Origin: Photobacterium leiognathi
GTDB lineage: Bacteria; Pseudomonadota; Gammaproteobacteria; Enterobacterales; Vibrionaceae
Reading direction: 5' to 3'
Length of the DNA: 64,000 nt
NCBI RefSeq assembly: GCF_030685535.1
Contig: NZ_CP131601.1
Span: forward strand, 3,205,132 to 3,269,131
Shown here: in pieces, positions 27,101 to 37,945 of the stretch
How positions within the stretch are numbered: position 1 is the first letter of the stretch
Layout: every line of letters begins with the position of its first letter
Notes under the pieces: generated by a model
Told to the model about the DNA's origin: nothing
The model's input: the letters and a program-made list of their open reading frames with translations, nothing else
Database searches by the model: none
Program-made: the position numbers and the translations under genes

Positions 27101-27286
27101 GTATATTTGTCCAACTTTTGTTGTCTACTTGTTGCTATATGTTAGTGGTAACACAGACATCTATCGCATGACAAGCAAAAAGTGTGGTTTTTTTAGCAAA
27201 CAAGCTGCATTTACAGGCATCTTATGAAACCCAAAAGCAATATTTCATTAACTAATGATTTTTTATCTCTGTGGGATGATGTATCG

Positions 27287-28199
27287 ATGACACTTGCAAT
27301 TGTTCATAGCCGAGCCTGTGTAGGTGTGCAGGCACCACCGGTTACGGTTGAAGTACATTTAAGTAATGGTCTACCAAGTTTTACGTTAGTGGGATTGCCT
27401 GAGACCACGGTCAAAGAGGCCAAAGATCGGGTTCGTAGCGCGATTATTAATGCTAATTTTGAGTTCCCTTCTCGGCGTATTACCGTCAACTTAGCCCCTG
27501 CTGATTTACCGAAAGAAGGCGGACGGTTTGATCTGCCCATCGCCCTCGGTATTCTCGCCGCTTCTGGGCAAATTCCGTCTGATAAGCTAAGCGATCATGA
27601 GTTTATTGGTGAGCTTGCACTCTCCGGTGAGTTGCGCCCTGTTAAAGGGGCTTTACCAGCGGCATTGGCGGCACTGAAAGCCAAACGTTGTTTTGTGGTG
27701 CCTGATCGCAATGGCGATCAAGTGGCGTTAGTGGGTAAAGAGACCCATAAATCAGCAGCAAGCTTACTGGCGGTTTGTGGTTATCTTTGTGGGCAACAAC
27801 AATTAGAGTTGCAGTTTGCAGAGTATCGCAATCAAACCGATGAGCATAATGATCGAGACATGCAAGATATCATCGGTCAGCAGCAAGGAAAGCGGGCGTT
27901 AGAAATAGCCGCTGCGGGCGGTCATAATTTACTGTTTTTAGGGCCGCCAGGAACGGGTAAAACTATGCTTGCCTCAAGGTTGTGTGATTTACTGCCGCCA
28001 ATGAGTCATGAAGAAGCACTAGAAACAGCAGCCGTTACTTCGCTTACTCAGCAATCATTACATCAAGGTAATTGGCTTAAACGCCCGTTTCGTACCCCAC
28101 ACCATTCAAGTTCGATGGCGGCTTTAGTGGGCGGTGGCTCAGTGCCGAAACCGGGAGAAATTTCACTTGCTCACAACGGCTTACTGTTCTTAGATGAAA
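27287..28199 (+). pseudogene. comM: comM (YifB-type Mg-chelatase-like helicase), 5' part, cut by element
   Basis: The frame starts at ATG 27287 (MTLAIVHSRACVGVQAPPV), the family's normal start. It carries the N-terminal domain (GLPSFTLVGLPETTVKEAKDR), Walker A (FLGPPGTGKTMLASRL, about residue 229) and the RTPHHSSS segment, and reaches NGLLFLDE, the Walker B end. After codon 304 (GAA, 28196-28198) the sequence becomes foreign and a stop follows at 28276 after 25 unrelated residues. ComM is a hexameric branch-migration helicase needed for efficient natural transformation. Its 3' part is at 37331-37945 in register. Confidence 0.93.
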
Positions 28200-28291
28200 G
28201 ATTAGTAATCCTAATGACTAAAAGTTATCAAAACAGTATCAAGTTTATGAATATGAATAATTTAAATGGCTTTTAGTGCATTTTATTTACG

Positions 28292-28338
28292 TTGACAATA
28301 ATCACTTTGACTTCTACGTTTTTTATTAGTTGTCAATT
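28292..28338. repeat. Left-end inverted repeat, candidate recombinase arm sites
   Basis: TTGACAATA at 28292-28300 and TTGTCAATT at 28330-28338 face each other (shared heptamer TTGACAA and its complement). The same nonamer TTGACAATA recurs at the right end (37294-37302). Repeats of this kind at both ends of a tyrosine-recombinase element are plausible arm-type binding sites; this is inference. Confidence 0.55.
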
Positions 28339-28352
28339 TATGAGGTTTGGTT

Positions 28353-30698
28353 GTGAATGTAAAAATACTAAATGAGCTTTCTTTATTAAAAACTGCACTG
28401 TCAGTCGAATACTCTAACTACCTAACACTTGCTGCTGAATCCTCAATCAATCCAATGAAAATTCAGGCAGTGTTGAATGTTTATGCAGCTTACTGCTACT
28501 TGGTTAAGCAAGGTAACTACAGTGCATTAGAAATACTGAATGATTCAAGCTCACTTAATGCACACTTCCAGTCGCTCATTGGCTTTGTTTATAACTGTGA
28601 TGATACCACTATCAAGCGTAGATATAATATTGGTAATCAACTCAAAAAATTTTTCCGCCACATTGCGCAAGATAAACATTTAACTCTTGATGAAGTAAAG
28701 CTTTCGGATCTAAAAATCACAGAAGACGCTTCGAGTTGTCTAGCTCAGTTCAGAGAGCTTAATATAGATAAATCAAAATCTGACTATCTTGATGGTTGGC
28801 AGGTGCTATCAAAAGAAGGCAAAGAACATGAGGCTCATCTGGATACGCTTTATGTTAATTTTGGTGAGGCGTTTACCAACAAGGTTCATCTTGCTCTAAA
28901 AAACTATGCTTTTACACAAAAATCATCATCTCTTACTCGTGCATTAATAGAACTCAAAAAACTATTTGTGGGTTTCTCCACTGTTTATAGCGACCGAGAA
29001 TGCCTGACAATAGAAGCCCTTTTAAGCCGTAATCATGTGCAGCTATTCTTCCATAAGGTGTTTAAAGTGCTATTTGTGCGCTCTCAAGCAGCCGATAACT
29101 GCCCAAAAGATTTTCATGCTAAGTGGCGAAATGCCATTAACTATTATACCGAGTGCTTTATCAACACGGGTGTTTTTGCTGAACCTCACAAACCATTCAT
29201 CGTTCCAGACTGGAAAGACCCAAAAGATGCAGCACCCACCTTTTCAATTGGTGGCAATGCTACGCAGCCAGAAAACCTTCGATGGTTTGCTAACATTCCA
29301 CTCAAAATTAAAGATGAAGAGGCTGTTTCAATTATTCAGCAACGTGTAGACCGAGACATGGCGCATGTCAGGCATGTGTGTCTCTTGAAGTTTTTGGAGC
29401 TTTTAGATCGAGAGGATAGGAATATAGCCTTTCAGAGCACTGGCTCTGTCAAGCCTCTAGATAGTAGCAATAGCAACAATTATCAATATAGAAACTTTGT
29501 CGGTGAAGATAAGTTAGATAATACAGTAGCAACCTTTTATGCGCATGGCATCGCTGCAAAAGGCGCTTCCTATTCCTCATTTTTGGGATTTTATGGAAAT
29601 GTTAGTCAGCTCAACACAGAGTTAAATTTACCAAGCAAATCATCGCTGAATGTTCTTTTGACGCTTCTTGTGATGGAGCATCCTCTGATAACACCTTCTT
29701 GGTTAGCAAAATGGGACTTATTTGATGTAAATGGCAATATGGTGGGCTATAAGCAAGTTGGTAATCAGCACATTGCGGTCAGTCACAAATCACGCAAAGG
29801 GTCTACCAATGCGCAGCAAGAAGTAGTGCTCAATGAGTTTTCTAAACCTATAGTTGAGTTCTTGGTGCGCCATACTCGCATGAGCCGTGAATACCTGAAG
29901 CAAAAAGGGAATGTGAATTGGCGAAAGATGATTTTGACTGCAACCACTACCAGTGTGATATGTCCAAGCAATCTCAATACCACTCTTTATTCAGCAAATG
30001 ATTTTTATAATTGGCTTCAAGATGAAACACTCTTTGATAAGAGCAGCGACATAACCTTGGAAGATGCTCAAGCCATTTCCGATATCCATTCGTTACGTTC
30101 CATTAGACGACACCGAGGCTTTCAAATTTATTTGGAAACACATTCAATGGATGCTGTTGCCGAGGCGCTTGGTCATGAAAAGAAGGATGTAAACCTACTG
30201 ACATCTTACCTTCCTAAGCCGTTAATGGACTTCTTTAATGCACGTTGGATACGTCAGTTCCAGAACGCTATTTTACTTGAAGCCATGAAAGATTCAGTGC
30301 ATCGACTTGATGCTGTGAACATGAGCGCTCAGGACATTGAGGAGTTCTTGAGTAATCACGGCATAAGCAACATTCCAGAGCACTTCGATCATGGTTTTAC
30401 TCAACAGACGACTACTGACAGTGAAGTTTCAGAATCATTAGGGTTTGACCAGTTAACATACACTATATCGACATCACTTTTGCAGTTGTTGATGGCGATA
30501 CGCTTTGTTGTTGAGAGTAGTGATGATGAGGAATCTTTTTTAGATATTGTGGCTCACTGGTATCAATCAGCGGTGTTTGTTTTAGATACCCTGAGTTCAG
30601 GCAAGCATAGTGCGGATGATGATTTGATGGGAATGCTTGATATTGCAACCAATAACAAACTAAATACTGACTCAATTAAAGGGGCGCTACTATGTTAA
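28353..30698 (+). CDS. Large tyrosine-recombinase-like protein, first gene of the element's recombination operon (GinA-like)
   Basis: About 781 aa from GTG 28353, which has GAGG 7 nt upstream; an in-frame TTG lies 6 bp earlier. The N-terminal 550 residues match nothing I recognise. The C-terminal part (about 585-650) has the catalytic box II of tyrosine recombinases: IHSLRSIRRHR (H-x-x-R form), ALGHEKKDV (the LGH motif) and LLTSYLP, with the likely nucleophile Tyr. I could not place the first catalytic Arg with confidence. It overlaps the next gene by 7 bp. In GInt islands all four gin genes are reported as needed for integration and excision. The residue placement is by eye. Confidence 0.75.
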   Translation: MNVKILNELSLLKTALSVEYSNYLTLAAESSINPMKIQAVLNVYAAYCYLVKQGNYSALEILNDSSSLNAHFQSLIGFVYNCDDTTIKRRYNIGNQLKKFFRHIAQDKHLTLDEVKLSDLKITEDASSCLAQFRELNIDKSKSDYLDGWQVLSKEGKEHEAHLDTLYVNFGEAFTNKVHLALKNYAFTQKSSSLTRALIELKKLFVGFSTVYSDRECLTIEALLSRNHVQLFFHKVFKVLFVRSQAADNCPKDFHAKWRNAINYYTECFINTGVFAEPHKPFIVPDWKDPKDAAPTFSIGGNATQPENLRWFANIPLKIKDEEAVSIIQQRVDRDMAHVRHVCLLKFLELLDREDRNIAFQSTGSVKPLDSSNSNNYQYRNFVGEDKLDNTVATFYAHGIAAKGASYSSFLGFYGNVSQLNTELNLPSKSSLNVLLTLLVMEHPLITPSWLAKWDLFDVNGNMVGYKQVGNQHIAVSHKSRKGSTNAQQEVVLNEFSKPIVEFLVRHTRMSREYLKQKGNVNWRKMILTATTTSVICPSNLNTTLYSANDFYNWLQDETLFDKSSDITLEDAQAISDIHSLRSIRRHRGFQIYLETHSMDAVAEALGHEKKDVNLLTSYLPKPLMDFFNARWIRQFQNAILLEAMKDSVHRLDAVNMSAQDIEEFLSNHGISNIPEHFDHGFTQQTTTDSEVSESLGFDQLTYTISTSLLQLLMAIRFVVESSDDEESFLDIVAHWYQSAVFVLDTLSSGKHSADDDLMGMLDIATNNKLNTDSIKGALLC

Positions 30699-33103
30699 GT
30701 GTTGCTATCGACAATTCCTCTATTGCTAACCTCATTGAAAACATCGTGGAAGACCATTCAGTTCTAAATGGTTTAAGTGCCGAGACTCTTGAAGATATTA
30801 TCAATTTTTCAGTAGCAAATGATGACTATCGAGCATTAGATATCATCACGAATATCCATACTGGCATCTACGGTTACGATGACCGACAGCCCGATTGGTT
30901 AGAATCCAGCTTTCCTGAAAACAAGTGGGTACTAACATTTGGCAAAACCCCAAAAACGATACATTGGGGCACGGTTTACTTAGATGACGGTAAGAAACTC
31001 ACGGATAAAAAACACCAAAAGCTGTTAAACAGCTTTAAATACTGGATTACGGCAGCAGATAATCCACTTGAAAACGGTGGGAAGGTTATCTGTCCAAGAA
31101 CTGCAAACCAAAAAGTTAACAGAGTTATCGCTCTCATCAATGCGGTCTTACTACACTCGAAAGAGTTGAAGCTAGCAAAATATCACCTTCTGAATGTGAA
31201 TGATGACTTTTGGTTGAACATCTTGACGAAAGTCGCCGAGCACGGAAATTTTCAAGGTGTGTATGAAATTGATAAACATACCAACGTATTACTGAATAAC
31301 GCTTCTCAAAGCATTTCTGATAGAGATGCACAAGCGTTTAAAGAGAAGTTTCCCTACGTTACACAGGACATCGTGCAAGATGAAAGTTTCTTATTTCTGT
31401 CCGAGAGAGAGAAGGCGTGTGCTTGGCTTTATGAGCAAAGTTATTATCACTCTGGAGAATACATAAAATACAGTGGCAACGGTGCTGTGCTGGGTGAGTT
31501 GTTGTTTAAAGGTAAGATGCTTTACCACGACATCAATATTCCCAACTACGCAGAACTTCACCTCAAAGCGCCAAGGCGAAACTTAGAGTATCGAGCGGTT
31601 GAGAATAATGACACCTCAACAGGCACGAATCAAAAGACTATCTCAAAATGGATTGAAGCAATTCGATTGATTCATACCAACCTTGAGCGTGAAGATGCGG
31701 CAACCCCTTCAATCTTGTCCGAGCGTGTCAGCTCAGGTCACATTAGCCAGTTAGTTAGCTTTAAAAAAGTAGGACGCACCCGCACCTTGCCGCCAACCTT
31801 TGTGTTTAATTTAATTCGTCAGTGCTATGAGTTTGCCAAAGAGCACTTACCTATAGAGGAAGGCTCTACTACTTTACTCGATGAAACATTAAGTGTGCTG
31901 TCTACAGCAAGAAGTAAATCTACTGAAATAAACTCCAACACACTCCGCCCACGAACACACGCTCTAGCTTGGAATGAAGAGTTGCATCGAGAGATGTCTA
32001 GTTCGGAGCAAGGGTACTGGTTTCAAACGGAGGCAATCAACTGTCTGAGTAGTGAATACCTTAAAAAAGGGGTAACGCAGATTCAAGGCTTTGCAGAAAG
32101 TGTGGAGAGTCGCTTTGAGCGGATTCGAGCTAATGAGAGCTTGTTTGATTTGTTCTCTGTACTGCAAGGGGCAATACAAGTCTTAGTGGGTGCAATCATG
32201 GCTCGAAGACAAGATGAATTAATCAAGTTGAAGTCACATGGCAACCTTTCACCTAATGTAAGTCCCTTTTCAGAAGCGGGTGCAAAAACAGAGTACAACC
32301 TGATTTTTAAGGTAAAAAAAACTGGCTCAAAAGGGGTGAACGCAACAATAGAAAGACCAATTCCCTTATCTATAGCAAGGTTCATTTGGCAACTGGAGCA
32401 ATTTAACATCAAAGCGAGTGAGTTGGGGTTATGCAAAGGAAAGTTATCTTTGTTTAACAACCTCAATTCAAGGAACTCGCAGTTAAGTCAGGTTGTTCAC
32501 ACGACATATAATACTCATCTTGATGCCTTATGCGATTACTTAGAAACGGACTTGGTGGAGTACGACAACGGTGAGTATCGCCGTAATTATGTCCGTCAGC
32601 ACCAATTGAGACGCTTCTTTGCTATGGCATTCTTTTGGTCAAAAGGATTTGATGGAATGGATGCTCTACGCTGGATGCTCGGACATTCAGATATGGAACA
32701 CTTATACCATTATATCTCTGAGTCGGAAACTGGGGCGGTACTAAACGGAGCTAAAGCCAGTGTAATTGTCCGTGGTGTGGTCGATTCCACTTCTGAACTT
32801 GCGAAGCTAGAAGGAATCGAAGAGGTTCGCAAAATCATTGCAGAACGCCTGACAGGTGATAGTTCAACACCCATCATGATAGAGTCAGTGAGTGAAGCCG
32901 CAGAAGATTACGATGATGAGTCTTATCTAACTGTCCCTCACATAAGCCAACTTCAAAAAGAGCAGGACATCGAAACAGAGGTTATTCAGCTTTTAGAAGA
33001 AGGTCGAATCACGCTTGAGCCAGAGTTCTTTACCATTGAAGATGCTGATGGAAATACAACTCAAACCTTTAATCTAATTTTAAAAATCAAAGACCTTGAT
33101 TGA
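30692..33103 (+). CDS. Large tyrosine recombinase, second gene of the recombination operon (GinB-like)
   Basis: 803 aa. The C-terminal third is a recognisable tyrosine recombinase catalytic domain: box I Arg in GAIMARRQDELIKLK (about residue 505), HQLRRFFAMAFFWSKG (box II H-x-x-R, about 637), WMLGHSDMEHLYHYI (LGH and the nucleophile Tyr, about 665). The N-terminal 480 residues are unusually long for this superfamily and have no motif known to me. The start codon overlaps the end of the preceding gene (ATGTTAAG), showing translational coupling. The pattern agrees with the large second recombinase of GInt and Tn554-type elements. Confidence 0.82.
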   Translation: MLSVAIDNSSIANLIENIVEDHSVLNGLSAETLEDIINFSVANDDYRALDIITNIHTGIYGYDDRQPDWLESSFPENKWVLTFGKTPKTIHWGTVYLDDGKKLTDKKHQKLLNSFKYWITAADNPLENGGKVICPRTANQKVNRVIALINAVLLHSKELKLAKYHLLNVNDDFWLNILTKVAEHGNFQGVYEIDKHTNVLLNNASQSISDRDAQAFKEKFPYVTQDIVQDESFLFLSEREKACAWLYEQSYYHSGEYIKYSGNGAVLGELLFKGKMLYHDINIPNYAELHLKAPRRNLEYRAVENNDTSTGTNQKTISKWIEAIRLIHTNLEREDAATPSILSERVSSGHISQLVSFKKVGRTRTLPPTFVFNLIRQCYEFAKEHLPIEEGSTTLLDETLSVLSTARSKSTEINSNTLRPRTHALAWNEELHREMSSSEQGYWFQTEAINCLSSEYLKKGVTQIQGFAESVESRFERIRANESLFDLFSVLQGAIQVLVGAIMARRQDELIKLKSHGNLSPNVSPFSEAGAKTEYNLIFKVKKTGSKGVNATIERPIPLSIARFIWQLEQFNIKASELGLCKGKLSLFNNLNSRNSQLSQVVHTTYNTHLDALCDYLETDLVEYDNGEYRRNYVRQHQLRRFFAMAFFWSKGFDGMDALRWMLGHSDMEHLYHYISESETGAVLNGAKASVIVRGVVDSTSELAKLEGIEEVRKIIAERLTGDSSTPIMIESVSEAAEDYDDESYLTVPHISQLQKEQDIETEVIQLLEEGRITLEPEFFTIEDADGNTTQTFNLILKIKDLD

Positions 33104-33114
33104 GGATTGGGACA

Positions 33115-33645
33115 ATGAAAGTTTTAGAGAAAAACCAAACGAAAATACTTGAAATAGAAAAGCTGTTGAGGGAAATAATCACATCTCCCGCTGAGTTTAA
33201 AGATGATGAAGAGTTGATTAAGGCTCTTAAATCACAATCTGGTATCGCTAAATATCAGAATCAAGAGCGTAATATCACATCATGCTCATTAAACACGGTC
33301 AAAAGCATCTCAGAAGCACTTCTGGAAAGAGGCTTCTTATCATTAGATGAGCTTCGTATTAATGCAAAACTGGCGGTAGAGGCTGTACATCACAATGAGA
33401 AAGCTTCTAAAGGAAACAAGCAAACTGTCGTGGGTTTAAAGCACAAAGTCGCTGAGCTTGAATCAGAGCTAGATGCAGCGCAGCGCAGCAATTCGTTACT
33501 GACCGTTATGGTTTCAGAGTTGCGTTCTAGATTAAAGCAACTAGCGAATCATGAAGGAACAGTAGAAGAACGACAGGAGCTTTATCGAGAGCACAATCGG
33601 AAGATTGAAGCGCAGATGAACTTCACTTTGAATGGAGAGCTATGA
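33115..33645 (+). CDS. Small coiled-coil accessory protein of the recombination operon (TnpC/small Gin type)
   Basis: 176 aa from ATG 33115, which has GAGGATTGGGA upstream. Residues 95-165 form a strong coiled coil (VVGLKHKVAELESELDAAQ, LLTVMVSELRSRLKQL). No catalytic motif is seen. Its position between the two later recombinases and its composition resemble TnpC of Tn554, a small orientation or accessory factor, and the small helix-rich protein of gin operons. It overlaps the next gene by 4 bp (ATGA). It probably bridges or positions the recombinases on DNA; that is inference. Confidence 0.7.
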   Translation: MKVLEKNQTKILEIEKLLREIITSPAEFKDDEELIKALKSQSGIAKYQNQERNITSCSLNTVKSISEALLERGFLSLDELRINAKLAVEAVHHNEKASKGNKQTVVGLKHKVAELESELDAAQRSNSLLTVMVSELRSRLKQLANHEGTVEERQELYREHNRKIEAQMNFTLNGEL

Positions 33646-35012
33646 TGGCGGTTCGTAAGCTTAAAAACTTTGAGCAATGGAGTCATCTTGGGTTTGATGG
33701 GAAGCTTGTCTTTCGTAAGCCACTGGATATTCCTTTCGTAACCTACAGTAATCATACTCCTTGCTATGAAGCCAATGCCTACATCCATAGTTTGATTGTG
33801 AGAAACTTAAAAAGTGACACCATTCGAGGGTATGCCCACGATATCATCCACTTGGTTCATTTTATTGAAAAACAGCCACTATTGAGTCGGTTTAGTCAAC
33901 TTACTGACGCAACATTCACTCTTTTCGTTCAATCACTACAGGCGGAGAGAACACCACTTGGCGAACTGAAGCGCAAGAATAACTCCGTTATAAAGATTGC
34001 GCATACCTGTTTGGATTTTTTGCAGTTTATCCAAGAGTTTCATGATTTGAGTGCTTTCATTGGCAAAGATAAAGGTAACTCAATTCAGATACTTGAAAAA
34101 CATTACAAGCGCAAACAGGAAGGCTATAAAGGGTTCATTGAAGGCACTAAAATTACGCATTCTGCTGTACCAACTAAAGACGAGATAAAGAAACGTCACC
34201 CTGTTTCAGAAGATGATGCCTTGCGTGTTTGGGAGCTTATAAAGACCCAGAAAAATAAAGATAAGCGCAGAAGGGATATGGCGTTATATACTGCAATGGA
34301 GCAGTTAGGTGGTCGAGTGTCCGAGCTTCATTTGATTAAAATGACCGATTACGAGGAAGCTAGACGCACAGGTATGCTCACTCTTACCACTTTGAAACGT
34401 AAAGATGATAACACCACTCGAAAGATACCTGTCCCACACCTTTTGTTATCTGTGATAGCGGATTACATTAAAGTTCGTAAGAAAGTCGTGAGGAAGAAAA
34501 AAGCCCAACATGATTATCTATTTGTCAGTTTAAAAACAGGCTTACGCTTATCCGCAGATTCATGGACAACGTACATGAACTCATGGAAAAAAGAGCTTGG
34601 TATCGAGGGAGAGTTACACCCGCACTTATGGAGACACGCATTTATAACAGATAAGCTCAAAGAGCTTATTCTTGCCACTAAAGAAGTGAATGATAAGGAC
34701 GATTTCCGAAAGCACTTACTTCACACGCAAACGTTTAAAATGCAGCTTCAACAGTGGACAGGCCATACAAATCTTAGCTCTTTAGATACTTATATTGACC
34801 TCGCATTTGCAGATATTCACGGCTACGCAGAGGTTTATAATGCAGTATCTCTAAAGTCGAGTGTTGACCTAGCAAAGCGTCAGATTGAGTTGTTAGAAGA
34901 GCAGATAGCAAGGAAGGAGTTAACGCCTACCGCAGCACTCGGTGAAATGAAGAAACTATTGGGAGCTTTTCAATCTGATATAGATAAAAGCATTGTTCCT
35001 TCGTCACAGTAA
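33642..35012 (+). CDS. Tyrosine recombinase, fourth gene of the recombination operon
   Basis: 456 aa, of ordinary integrase size. It has an N-terminal SAM-like core-binding domain (about residues 40-150) and a full catalytic set: LGGRVSELHLIKM (box I Arg, about 222), HPHLWRHAFITDKL (box II H-x-x-R-H, about 322), QQWTGHTNLSSLDTYIDLA (His plus nucleophile Tyr, about 363). Of the three recombinases this is the most canonical and probably provides strand cleavage. The C-terminus is a helical tail (KRQIELLEEQIARKE). Its start is coupled to the preceding gene, so the four genes form one operon with no gaps. Confidence 0.88.
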   Translation: MMAVRKLKNFEQWSHLGFDGKLVFRKPLDIPFVTYSNHTPCYEANAYIHSLIVRNLKSDTIRGYAHDIIHLVHFIEKQPLLSRFSQLTDATFTLFVQSLQAERTPLGELKRKNNSVIKIAHTCLDFLQFIQEFHDLSAFIGKDKGNSIQILEKHYKRKQEGYKGFIEGTKITHSAVPTKDEIKKRHPVSEDDALRVWELIKTQKNKDKRRRDMALYTAMEQLGGRVSELHLIKMTDYEEARRTGMLTLTTLKRKDDNTTRKIPVPHLLLSVIADYIKVRKKVVRKKKAQHDYLFVSLKTGLRLSADSWTTYMNSWKKELGIEGELHPHLWRHAFITDKLKELILATKEVNDKDDFRKHLLHTQTFKMQLQQWTGHTNLSSLDTYIDLAFADIHGYAEVYNAVSLKSSVDLAKRQIELLEEQIARKELTPTAALGEMKKLLGAFQSDIDKSIVPSSQ

Positions 35013-35124
35013 AAGTTCATCCTCAAGCGGTCATGTAACACGTCTTTGGATAAAAAACTGTTAGGCAATTTGCTTATTTAGGCTGGTAGTATTAAGAAAA
35101 GTAAGTGTAAAGAACATTCTAATA

Positions 35125-35152
35125 ACTATCTTATTGTATACAACGAGATAGT
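35125..35152. repeat. 28 bp nested palindrome between recombination operon and cargo
   Basis: The arms ACTATCT / AGATAGT enclose the perfect 10 bp palindrome TTGTATACAA, separated by 2 nt on each side. No T run follows, so it is not a simple terminator. It lies in the 264 bp non-coding gap between the convergent recombination and cargo operons. It could be an operator or a recombination or replication site; nothing in the sequence decides this. Confidence 0.65.
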
Positions 35153-35276
35153 CAAAATGACCAGCTTGTTGTTGGACAGATACGCGTTAGACTTAAGCTC
35201 TGAAAGTGATTCTTAAGTGAGTCATCTAGAGGTTTTAGTTTTGAATCGACTCAACTGAGATTTCTAGGAAGGGAAA

Positions 35277-35678
35277 TTAAGAAGAGGCTTGTTCAGATTT
35301 TATAAGGTGCGGATTTGAGCTTATTTCACTGCGAGCAACTATGAGTTTGGTATGTTGCTTCTTCAAAACATCTATATCTTCTTGTGAATACCCCGCCTTT
35401 TTCGCTGCAGCAATACTTTTCTCTAATTTCTTAATATCACCATCAAATCGACGAATCACTTTAAGCTCTTCAAGAGGTCTGACTCCAATTGCGGTAAAGG
35501 CATATTCCAATAACCAAAAAAGCGCACCAATTAAAGCAGGCACAGCAGTAGAAACAAGTGCTGCATTCTCAGGATTCCCCCAAGCGTTATACATAGCAAT
35601 AATTGCAGTTGAAGCGCCACCAATAGACAGACCAGGCGATAAGGCTTTGCTTGAGTTGTTCTTAGGCTGCTCAGCCAT
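35277..35678 (-). CDS. Cargo gene 3: small membrane protein with two hydrophobic segments and a helical tail
   Basis: 133 aa. Two hydrophobic segments (about residues 14-30, GLSIGGASTAIIAMYNAWG, and 42-63, ALVSTAVPALIGALFWLLE) are followed by a charged helical cytoplasmic-type tail (IKKLEKSIAAAKKAGYSQED). I recognise no family. Its start lies 8 bp inside the end of cargo gene 2, so translation is coupled. Small two-span proteins like this can be pore-forming effectors or holin-like, but no sequence motif proves it. Confidence 0.7.
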   Translation of the reverse strand: MAEQPKNNSSKALSPGLSIGGASTAIIAMYNAWGNPENAALVSTAVPALIGALFWLLEYAFTAIGVRPLEELKVIRRFDGDIKKLEKSIAAAKKAGYSQEDIDVLKKQHTKLIVARSEISSNPHLIKSEQASS

Positions 35679-35949
35679 TTTTATTGACCTTCAAAACGGA
35701 ATGCTTTTCTATGTGTCCAGTAGCCTTCAGAATCACATCAGCTATTTCATCTGTATTATCAAGCTTTATAATTCTTGTCGTTGAATGGTAGTTATCTCCT
35801 TCAACTTTAAGCTTTATAGTGGTGGCGGGAACAAGATAAAGAGCTATAGCACGACCCAGTAAACGACAGATACGAGCAATCCACGGAAGAGACATGAAAA
35901 TCCCTACCGTCAGAAATAAGCTCATAATTGTGTCGTGCTCTAAATTCAT
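35671..35949 (-). CDS. Cargo gene 2: 92 aa single-span membrane protein
   Basis: 92 aa with one hydrophobic N-terminal segment (TIMSLFLTVGIFMSLPWIA), a second weaker one (LLGRAIALYLVPATTI) and a polar C-terminal half with beta-strand-like alternation. No recognised domain. The first ATG is 4 bp beyond the stop of cargo gene 1, so all three cargo genes behave as one operon. Unknown function. Confidence 0.65.
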   Translation of the reverse strand: MNLEHDTIMSLFLTVGIFMSLPWIARICRLLGRAIALYLVPATTIKLKVEGDNYHSTTRIIKLDNTDEIADVILKATGHIEKHSVLKVNKNG

Positions 35950-35953
35950 AGTA

Positions 35954-36823
35954 TTAACCTAGCTGACGAATCACTTCTTCAATAGTGTAACGTGTATTCA
36001 CAGAACCATCAGGTTTTGTTGTCTTAACTGTTTTCATCATCACTAAACAAGGCTTAGTTTTTGAAAACTCTTCATAGCCTTGATTAATTCGGCTGATAAA
36101 GGCTTCATGATTCATACGAACTGATTCAATCTCACCATTCGGTAATTTAAACTTCCAACCTGTAGCTGACTCGAAGTTTACCTGAGAAAAGTGAATTGTC
36201 ATCTGATTTGTTTCTTCTTCCACTTGCTCAAGAGTTTTCTGAGGTAGCTTTCTGAAAGCTGCTGCATCTTCACTAACTACAACTATTACCTCATCATCAT
36301 TTTCATTTTTGATGATTAGCTTTGCATCGTCCTTGTTCTCAATTGGTGTTGTGAATACTGTTTCTATATCCTTGCGAACATCTTTATTTAACAGTATTTT
36401 AGCAATATTCGGTTCAAGTTCATGCTCTTCGCCATCTTTGGTTTTAAGAATCACCTTGCCGTCACGTTTCAAACTACCAACGATTTTTCGACCCTTTAAC
36501 GCTTCCATTGCCCCCAAAACAGTATTAGCACAACCTACACCAACTGCAGTTGATATACCTAAAATTTGCAACACGTCGGCTCCACCAGTGTTTAGCCATG
36601 TTACAAATTCAACCATAAACGAACCTTCTTGATGTGCTCGAACCTTCACTTGAAGATCAGACTGCTCACCATTAATAAGCCTATTGGAGCTTTTTATCGC
36701 ATTCGACAAACTTAAGATCGAATGTCCAAGAGTCTCAGCATCAATTGTATGGTTAGCTGTTTCTTCCATATCATACGACAGTTTGAATACTTGTTTACTT
36801 GGCTCATTACTACTAGGTGCCAT
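35954..36823 (-). CDS. Cargo gene 1: 289 aa protein of unknown function with a central hydrophobic segment
   Basis: First gene of the three-gene cargo operon, with AAAGG 8 nt before its ATG. Residues 12-75 look like a compact alpha/beta domain (FKLSYDMEE, LSLSNAIKSSNRLINGEQ, VRAHQEGSFMVEFV). Residues 80-107 are hydrophobic (VLQILGISTAVGVGCANTVL) and may be a membrane segment or buried helix. A charged region follows, then a C-terminal domain with GWKFKLPNG and RYTIEEVIRQLG. I recall similar uncharacterised proteins in other genomic islands but cannot name a family. Base composition is lower in GC than the chromosomal genes around it. It is likely the sensor or regulatory part of the operon; this is inference from order only. 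Confidence 0.68.
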   Translation of the reverse strand: MAPSSNEPSKQVFKLSYDMEETANHTIDAETLGHSILSLSNAIKSSNRLINGEQSDLQVKVRAHQEGSFMVEFVTWLNTGGADVLQILGISTAVGVGCANTVLGAMEALKGRKIVGSLKRDGKVILKTKDGEEHELEPNIAKILLNKDVRKDIETVFTTPIENKDDAKLIIKNENDDEVIVVVSEDAAAFRKLPQKTLEQVEEETNQMTIHFSQVNFESATGWKFKLPNGEIESVRMNHEAFISRINQGYEEFSKTKPCLVMMKTVKTTKPDGSVNTRYTIEEVIRQLG

Positions 36824-37330
36824 AACTTAACCTTTGTCATTAATTTTTCTTGTTATAATAAACAGAACCTCCTTTTTTGTATAATATTTTAGACACTTAC
36901 AATAGAAAAAAGCTCGTTTACTTCTCGATTTATGATTGTAAAAGCTATAAAGAACGCACAGATGGTATCGGTTCGAGCAATTTCCATCGTTGAGCACACT
37001 TTTGGCTTCATTCTTTCCCTTTCAAGAGTTGGAGAAAGCTTTCGTCTCTAACAAGGAATGGGAGCTAATTGTTTTAGCTGGTAGTTTTGCTATCTATCTG
37101 AATTAGTAGTTGCACCAAACGATTAAGAGAATATTCATTCATGAGGAGGGGCTAGATAAAGAAGTCCGATTGAACGGATAATATAGCGAGTTTTCCGGCT
37201 AAATAGAAAAATGAATGGCCTACCGTTCCACTAGTATCTAAAGCAATACGCTCCACTAAATCGAACTACACTAATAATATTCAAAGTCTCGAATTGACAA
37301 TATTTATTATTCAAACTCGATATTAGGAAA
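36824..37330. other. Non-coding right end of the element
   Basis: About 507 bp without a credible gene. The cargo promoter should be in its left part, where AT-rich sequence (near 36840-36900) precedes cargo gene 1. The last 80 bp contain TTGACAATA (37294-37302), shared with the left end, and ATTAGGA at the tip (37323-37328 region), which is the complement of TCCTAAT near the left tip (28209-28215). It corresponds to the AT-rich 3' end expected of a GInt. Confidence 0.6.
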
Positions 37331-37945
37331 ATGCCTGAGTTTGAGCGCAAAGTGCTCGATTCATTACGGGAGCCGCTTGAGTCTGGGCACATTGTAATTT
37401 CTCGCGCCAGCAGTAAAACGACCTTTCCTGCCCGCTTTCAGCTGATTGGTGCCTTAAATCCTAGCCCGTCTGGTTATTACGATGGCAATCAAACACGTAC
37501 CAATCCTCAAGCGATATTGCGCTATTTAAGCCGTTTGAGTGGACCATTACTTGATAGGTTTGATATGTCGATTGAGATCCCAGCCTTGCCTCGTGGCACA
37601 TTGACCGAAGGTGGTGATCGGGGCGATACGACTGCTGTGATTAAGTCTCGGGTCGATCAGGCAAGAGTGCGAATGTTAGCGAGAAGTGGCAAAGTGAATG
37701 CGCTGCTATCAACCCGAGAGCTCGATCAACATTGTCCATTACAGCAAGCAGATGCGGCTTTTTTAGAAAACGCACTGCATCAGCTAGGACTATCTATTCG
37801 GGCGTATCATCGGATTATTAAAGTGGCACGCACAATAGCGGATTTAGCTGGTGAAACTAGTATTGGTCGAGGGCACCTTGCTGAAGCATTGGGGTATCGT
37901 TCGATGGATAGACTCTTAAAGCAGATCAATAGCCAAGTGGTGTAG
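37331..37945 (+). pseudogene. comM: comM, 3' part, right of the element
   Basis: 205 codons that resume at MPEFERKVLDSLREPLESGH, exactly in register with codon 304 of the 5' part. The segment contains the second half of the ATPase core (RFQLIGALNPSPSGYYDGN, LDRFDMSIEIPALP with the Arg finger region) and the C-terminal Mg-chelatase domain (LSTRELDQHCPL, SIRAYHRIIKVARTIADLAG). An ATG happens to stand at the junction, but there is no ribosome site. A strong terminator follows. Confidence 0.93.

Follow-up and report, generated by a model that had tools for sequence, protein, structure and literature searches.

A three-gene membrane operon carried by a comM element of Photobacterium leiognathi, a probable relative of the mycobacteriophage gp29-gp30 abortive-infection system

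We have analysed an operon of three genes, referred to here as the trio, in a 64,000-nucleotide stretch of Photobacterium leiognathi DNA (the window; contig NZ_CP131601.1), where it is the cargo of a mobile element inserted in comM. With a probability of roughly 0.6 we consider the operon to be a mobile-element-borne anti-phage system and a three-gene relative of the gp29-gp30 abortive-infection system of mycobacteriophage MichelleMyBell (MMB). A role in phage defence is probable because gene 1 is related to a phage-blocking component from mycobacteria, and because relatives of the carrier element bear known defence systems.

Organization of the operon

The three genes are all on the minus strand and encode proteins of 289 aa (gene 1, 36823-35954), 92 aa (gene 2, 35949-35671) and 133 aa (gene 3, 35678-35277). 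Genes 1 and 2 are spaced by 4 bp (35950-35953) and genes 2 and 3 overlap by 8 bp (35671-35678), so that the coordinates bear out the compact same-strand arrangement given in a preliminary description of this DNA. From the last recombinase stop (35012) to the start of the 3′ comM part (37331), the list of open reading frames (ORFs) of at least 60 aa holds the trio, two antisense ORFs that overlap it and no others; the trio is thus the sole cargo of the element, as had been proposed. A promoter-like site is present upstream of gene 1 (36883-36855), in DNA where such sites occur at chance frequency (6 found, against a mean of 6.4 in shuffles). The source genome yielded a single copy of the operon, at 3.2 Mb.

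Relationship of gene 1 to MMB gp29

The plating of phage Tweety is reduced by four to five orders of magnitude in the presence of an MMB prophage (PMC8549241), and the defence is described as typical of abortive infection, in that adsorption and injection proceed and phage production is thwarted (PMC6426606). MMB stands for mycobacteriophage MichelleMyBell in PMC11856565, which describes gp29 as toxic, gp30 as a putative membrane protein and the mechanism of the pair as unknown.

Two observations point to gp29. A search of viral proteins for folds like that of the gene-1 model ranked a mycobacteriophage Pipsqueaks protein third (E 3e-7), and in a Vibrio phage that has the trio, gene 1 carries the depositor note 'MMB_gp29_gp30__gp29'. 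MMB genes 29 and 30, which we fetched, encode 310 and 67 aa and overlap by 41 bp. Among 3,679 sequences, a profile built from trio gene-1 proteins only matches gp29 with an E of 6e-16 (56 bits) and Pipsqueaks gp31 with 2e-11, and a wider gene-1 profile matches gp29 at 4e-23. Comparison of gp29 with three gene-1 profiles by hhalign gives 97.9, 98.9 and 98.1% over 245-267 columns. By these profile comparisons gene 1 is a full-length remote homologue of gp29.

The systems are also alike in that the next gene downstream, which overlaps or adjoins the first, codes for a small putative membrane protein; gp29-gp30, from a Cluster N phage, has the lysis genes on one side and the integrase on the other. 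They differ in that MMB has two genes rather than three and in that the trio has Gram-negative hosts and is known from sequence alone. No significant match was found between gp30 and the profiles of genes 2 and 3, although at 67 aa gp30 is a short query. We considered gp30 as a shortened gene 3, both having a proline in the second hydrophobic segment, and found no support for this; hhalign aligned one column, with a score of 13.96, and 60 shuffled controls reach 13.03.

Families and predicted structures of the three proteins

The preliminary description recognised no family among the three proteins, which stands for genes 2 and 3 in that neither has a named family, but not for gene 1. Residues 9-286 of its 289 match positions 2-288 of the 302 in PADLOC model PDC-S42 (PDLC05015) with an E of 2e-34, and the model hits all 29 aligned gene-1 proteins at E <= 0.01. 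Gene 1 also matches PHROG 3243 (phrog_3243; E 4e-71) and scores 213.8 bits, against a curated cut-off of 60, on NCBIfam NF053583 (LAPAL_fam), named 'LAPAL motif-containing putative phage structural protein'. The motif itself is absent from gene 1, which reads DAETLGHSIL where several single-gene relatives read DVRDLAPALL, the correspondence being set by eye. Pfam yielded a sub-threshold match to DUF7946 (0.053), which we did not accept. A Protein Data Bank (PDB) sequence search with the gene-1 profile gave a best E of 0.28, and tblastn with the gene 1 of a lambdoid prophage (locus L021 of our set) found no match in the phage collection.

The AlphaFold2 model of gene 1 (pLDDT 83.5) has an N-terminal alpha/beta domain, a glycine-rich hydrophobic hairpin (~84-109) and, by fold matches, a C-terminal OB-like fold. 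The central hydrophobic segment noted previously is present (~80-109), although it is rich in glycine and its hydrophobicity is only moderate (best mean over 19 residues, 1.57), and membrane insertion is therefore plausible and not certain. Seven residues are invariant in the alignment (H25, G67, S68, G89, P160, W223 and F242), and no catalytic cluster is seen among them.

Gene 2 was described as a membrane protein, in agreement with the single membrane segment, near-invariant Pro22 and small C-terminal domain seen in an alignment of 32 sequences. The gene-3 model (AlphaFold2, pLDDT 75.1) contains a two-helix membrane hairpin (15-33 and 36-64) followed by a charged helical hairpin (69-95 and 99-121), and so accords with the two hydrophobic segments and charged tail reported earlier, although a simple hydropathy count flags only one of the two hydrophobic helices. 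Neither protein matches PADLOC or NCBIfam up to an E of 1, and searches of Pfam and PHROGs gave nothing convincing. Over 34 gene-3 sequences the Pfam matches were scattered and sub-threshold, and were discarded; mostly unnamed PHROGs recur among the relatives of genes 2 and 3. The best PDB sequence match of gene 2 has an E of 0.1. Protein searches returned 49, 11 and 5 matches at E <= 0.001 for genes 1, 2 and 3, respectively, and judged from sequence comparison the two small partners diverge fast.

Recurrence of the trio as a unit

We called a trio where two genes follow gene 1, the first within 60 bp and encoding 65-100 aa with a membrane segment at the N-terminus, the second encoding 100-180 aa with a hydrophobic segment; the limits on length, gap and hydrophobicity are our own. 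Recurrence of the trio elsewhere had been suggested as a check on the preliminary description, and both partners are indeed found downstream in 36 of the 52 distinct gene-1 proteins of at least 230 aa in the fetched loci. Among 580 other ORFs of at least 200 aa in these loci, eight precede a gene-2-like protein and none precedes both. Thirty-one gene-1 proteins score above 150 bits in the gene-1 profile, some of them near-copies, and 30 of these have the trio; the sole exception, L006, has gene 2 only. No partner pair was called for the remaining 15 relatives (45-122 bits or less), which include those of Listeria phage vB_LmoS_188 and Lactobacillus phage A2, as well as L051, whose contig ends 493 bases after gene 1.

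Six near-identical loci (L024, L025, L029, L032, L038 and L046) were excluded from the alignments and from the test of distances, which left 30 of the 36 trios. Across these 30 loci, distances between pairs of sequences are correlated among the three proteins (r 0.83, 0.81 and 0.76; 0 of 2000 permutations in each case), as joint descent of the three would produce. The three genes form a unit.

The carrier element and the cargo of its relatives

The element occupies window positions 28199-37330 and splits the host comM at this locus (27224-37945) into a 5′ part (27224..28198) and a 3′ part (37331..37945), both on the plus strand; comM has a role in natural transformation. By eye, the left end (28199..28218) consists of 9 bp that vary between sister elements and then ATCCTAATGAC, and the right end (37319..37330) is GATATTAGGAAA, which scarcely varies in the four sister elements with a visible right end. 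Four recombination genes lie on the plus strand: two large recombinase-like proteins of 783 aa (28347..30698, with no Pfam domain) and 803 aa (30692..33103, with only a sub-threshold Phage_integrase match near the C-terminus), a small protein of 181 aa that is coiled-coil-like by eye (33100..33645), and an ordinary tyrosine recombinase of 456 aa (33642..35012; Phage_integrase, E 3.7e-14).

The gene for the 803-aa recombinase is present in 30 of 329 genomes of the Vibrionaceae, including that of the window. All 15 sister regions fetched (L144-L158) have the four recombination genes in the same order, although in L145 a contig end truncates the first of them and in L148 ~2.6 kb of other sequence splits it (L148:15270-17842). 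Eight of the 15 have comM flanks, and the comM copies have the nine variable left-end bases. The far end is unmapped for L155-L158 and several others.

We scanned 20 cargo proteins from 11 of the 15 sister elements against PADLOC; these proteins were picked by hand while their sequences were being viewed, and sampling was therefore not blind. All 11 elements have PADLOC matches next to the recombinase genes, with 19 of the 20 proteins at E <= 1e-5 and the best protein at E <= 7e-37 in nine elements. The strong matches are to type III restriction-modification (R-M; L144), Dsr1 (L145), IetAS (L147), the candidate PDC-M18A (L148), Ppl (L152), Wadjet JetACD (L155), type I R-M (L156), a type I restriction enzyme (L157) and QatACD (L158), with weaker ones in L146 (1.5e-15) and L153 (1e-8). 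For comparison, one of ten chromosomal genes of the window matches PADLOC (the mad2 model, 2e-27, over part of its length). The unscanned elements are L149, L150, L151 and L154; the contigs of L151 and L154 end, and the ORFs shown for L149 resemble an efflux pump. On these sequence matches the Vibrionaceae element family, often located in comM, has exchangeable cargo that often matches defence models.

This cargo also bears on a different explanation, that the trio is a toxin-antitoxin-like maintenance module which retains the element and protects against phages only as a side effect. Such a module would suit genes that adjoin or overlap and that are carried on plasmids and prophages, and gp29 is described as toxic (PMC11856565). 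Toxicity of gene 1 would nevertheless be drawn by analogy with gp29, and the sister cargo scanned matches defence models, albeit in a scan that included no search for addiction modules. We regard a maintenance function as improbable.

Carriers and neighbourhoods of the trio

Carriers were identified from the genes around the trio, by eye where there was no annotation. The trio is present in a PM2-like Vibrio phage (an annotated record), in a prophage of PM2-like type (L002) and in tailed prophages, Mu-like ones among them, and in L003 it adjoins filamentous-phage-like genes. It is also found on a contig that bears an ArdC-like gene and genes resembling those for conjugation (L005), and on plasmids (a conjugative one of Shewanella and a megaplasmid of P. 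aeruginosa). When the trio proteins are joined and placed in a tree (29 rows, L050 also being excluded from alignments and tree), the nearest partner of the window copy is the PM2-like V. europaeus copy (95/92), beside copies from other carriers. The carrier labels require 14 changes on this tree against a minimum possible of 10, those of L007, L014 and L019 being assumed from the nearest relatives. The tree placement and label changes indicate that the trio has changed carriers, with the labels set by eye.

Thirty-four records with gene-1 relatives were found in the plasmid collection, 30 of them from Pseudomonas and most at equal identity to the query. In the one record viewed, IS6100 and IS26 lie next to the trio.

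In prophages the surroundings of the trio bear on two further explanations. Under superinfection exclusion, the trio would keep out the DNA of related phages at the inner membrane while the cell survives. Hydrophobic segments are present in each of the three proteins, exclusion of DNA injection by a single membrane protein is described for phage Charlie (PMC6426606), and in seven prophage loci the trio is located behind a repressor-like gene on the same strand (L012, L013, L016, L017, L018, L020 and L035, by eye). However, the same paper describes the gp29 system as abortive, with injection proceeding, and the trio is also carried by plasmids and the comM element. Exclusion at entry is thus an unlikely function.

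Capture of a phage structural or lysis module would agree with the NCBIfam name, with the endolysin-like gene directly downstream of the trio in five loci (L007, L011, L012, L014 and L018) and with the location of the trio within the tail operon in L102. In contrast, the trio is antiparallel to lysis-like and Q-like genes in L021 and L037 and to PM2-like structural genes in L002 (by eye), and no virion gene was seen near it in the comM element, the conjugative Shewanella plasmid or the P. aeruginosa megaplasmid. A simple rule of strand or position does not hold, as the trio is on the lytic strand in L009 and L010 and inside the tail operon in L102. We consider a structural or lysis role very improbable.

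In E. coli prophage C3728 a different hypothetical gene of 1,074 bp (L060:8199-9272) is located between holin and Q, antiparallel to both. This position, which is the trio site in related lambdoid prophages (L021), is likely to be a slot for accessory genes.

Ten genes near gene-1 loci elsewhere, chosen by eye, were compared with PADLOC, and eight match at E <= 0.001. L009 has AbiH and PDC-S15, L003 has PDC-S15 and a SIR2-like protein, and L056 has an HNH effector-like protein along with a type I R-M pair by annotation. No match at this threshold was obtained for one L009 gene or for the 'putative superinfection immunity protein' of a Listeria phage. In vB_LmoS_188 the gene-1 relative is beside a gene with this annotation. 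Relatives without called partners adjoin the integrase in both vB_LmoS_188 (L061:4995-5882) and Lactobacillus phage A2 (L062:4893-5795). A single-gene relative directly precedes a PglX-like methyltransferase and two methyltransferase/type IIG-like genes in L095 (8325-16542), and these methyltransferase and type IIG-like neighbours are also among the PADLOC matches.

Comparison with other known systems

The kind of defence is already known, since gene 1 corresponds to a PADLOC candidate and has a remote homologue in a system tested in mycobacteria. Gene 1 resembles PDC-S42 over its own whole length, whereas genes 2 and 3 have no PADLOC model; the 'S' in this name presumably denotes a single-gene candidate. 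Searches of open-licence PMC papers did not retrieve a three-gene form, which is a weak test of absence.

Kiwa (KwaA-KwaB) is similar in layout, with a membrane protein and a possibly nucleic-acid-binding protein of about 300 aa (PMC12904381). The KwaB model hits one of 29 aligned gene-1 proteins, weakly (0.0013), gene 1 shows no match to KwaB (DUF4868) up to an E of 1, and a KwaB search gave weak matches in three of 249 genomes, too few for an alignment. The best KwaA chain has a similarly weak E of 0.16 to the gene-3 profile. KwaA has four membrane helices, unlike the two in the gene-3 model, and the trio has a third gene. A Kiwa chain is absent from the fold-comparison listing, which is uninformative either way. 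With two weak leads and no significant match to KwaA or KwaB, identity with Kiwa is not supported.

The carrier element was compared with SE and GInt elements by description and gene order. SE likewise have four genes for recombination, among which are tyrosine recombinases of both the large and the ordinary type and one small protein, as well as variable bases by the left end and a preferred target site (PMC10214605). The SE order is described there as intA-tfp-intB-srap, compared with large, large, small and ordinary recombinase (783, 803, 181 and 456 aa) in the carrier.

Proposed mechanism

The preliminary description proposed a membrane-acting phage defence with gene 1 as sensor and genes 2 and 3 as effector. 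The homology to gp29, the defence genes of sister elements and the recurrence of the trio favour its first part, but the division of roles is not supported as written, as gp29 is described as the toxic partner (PMC11856565) and this would reverse them. The original division is possible, and gene 1 is equally likely to be the toxic part or the sensor.

In the abortive-infection system that we favour, the three proteins would form one inner-membrane complex. Gene 1 would be a latent toxic protein, held harmless at the membrane by genes 2 and 3, which may act as membrane anchors with small inward-facing domains. A signal arising after DNA entry, possibly sensed by the OB-like domain of gene 1, would free or rearrange gene 1, and its glycine-rich hairpin would then damage the membrane, or the cell would be shut down in some other way, such that phage production stops.

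More tentatively, and as a proposal we find somewhat doubtful, gene 1 could be detector and killer in one. It would combine a nucleic-acid-binding OB-like domain with a fusion-peptide-like hairpin, be kept latent by its two small partners, and insert into the membrane once the OB domain encounters the DNA of a phage or one of its DNA-binding proteins. On this view MMB gp29-gp30 would be a reduced two-gene form.

Significance

A three-gene relative in tractable Gram-negative bacteria, with predicted structures for two of its parts, would make the question of how MMB gp29-gp30 acts directly testable. The PDC-S42 candidate, and with it a perhaps misnamed 'phage structural' family, would be extended to a unit of several genes that passes among unrelated mobile elements. 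For the Vibrionaceae, the element family often found in comM would be a vehicle of exchangeable defence cargo.
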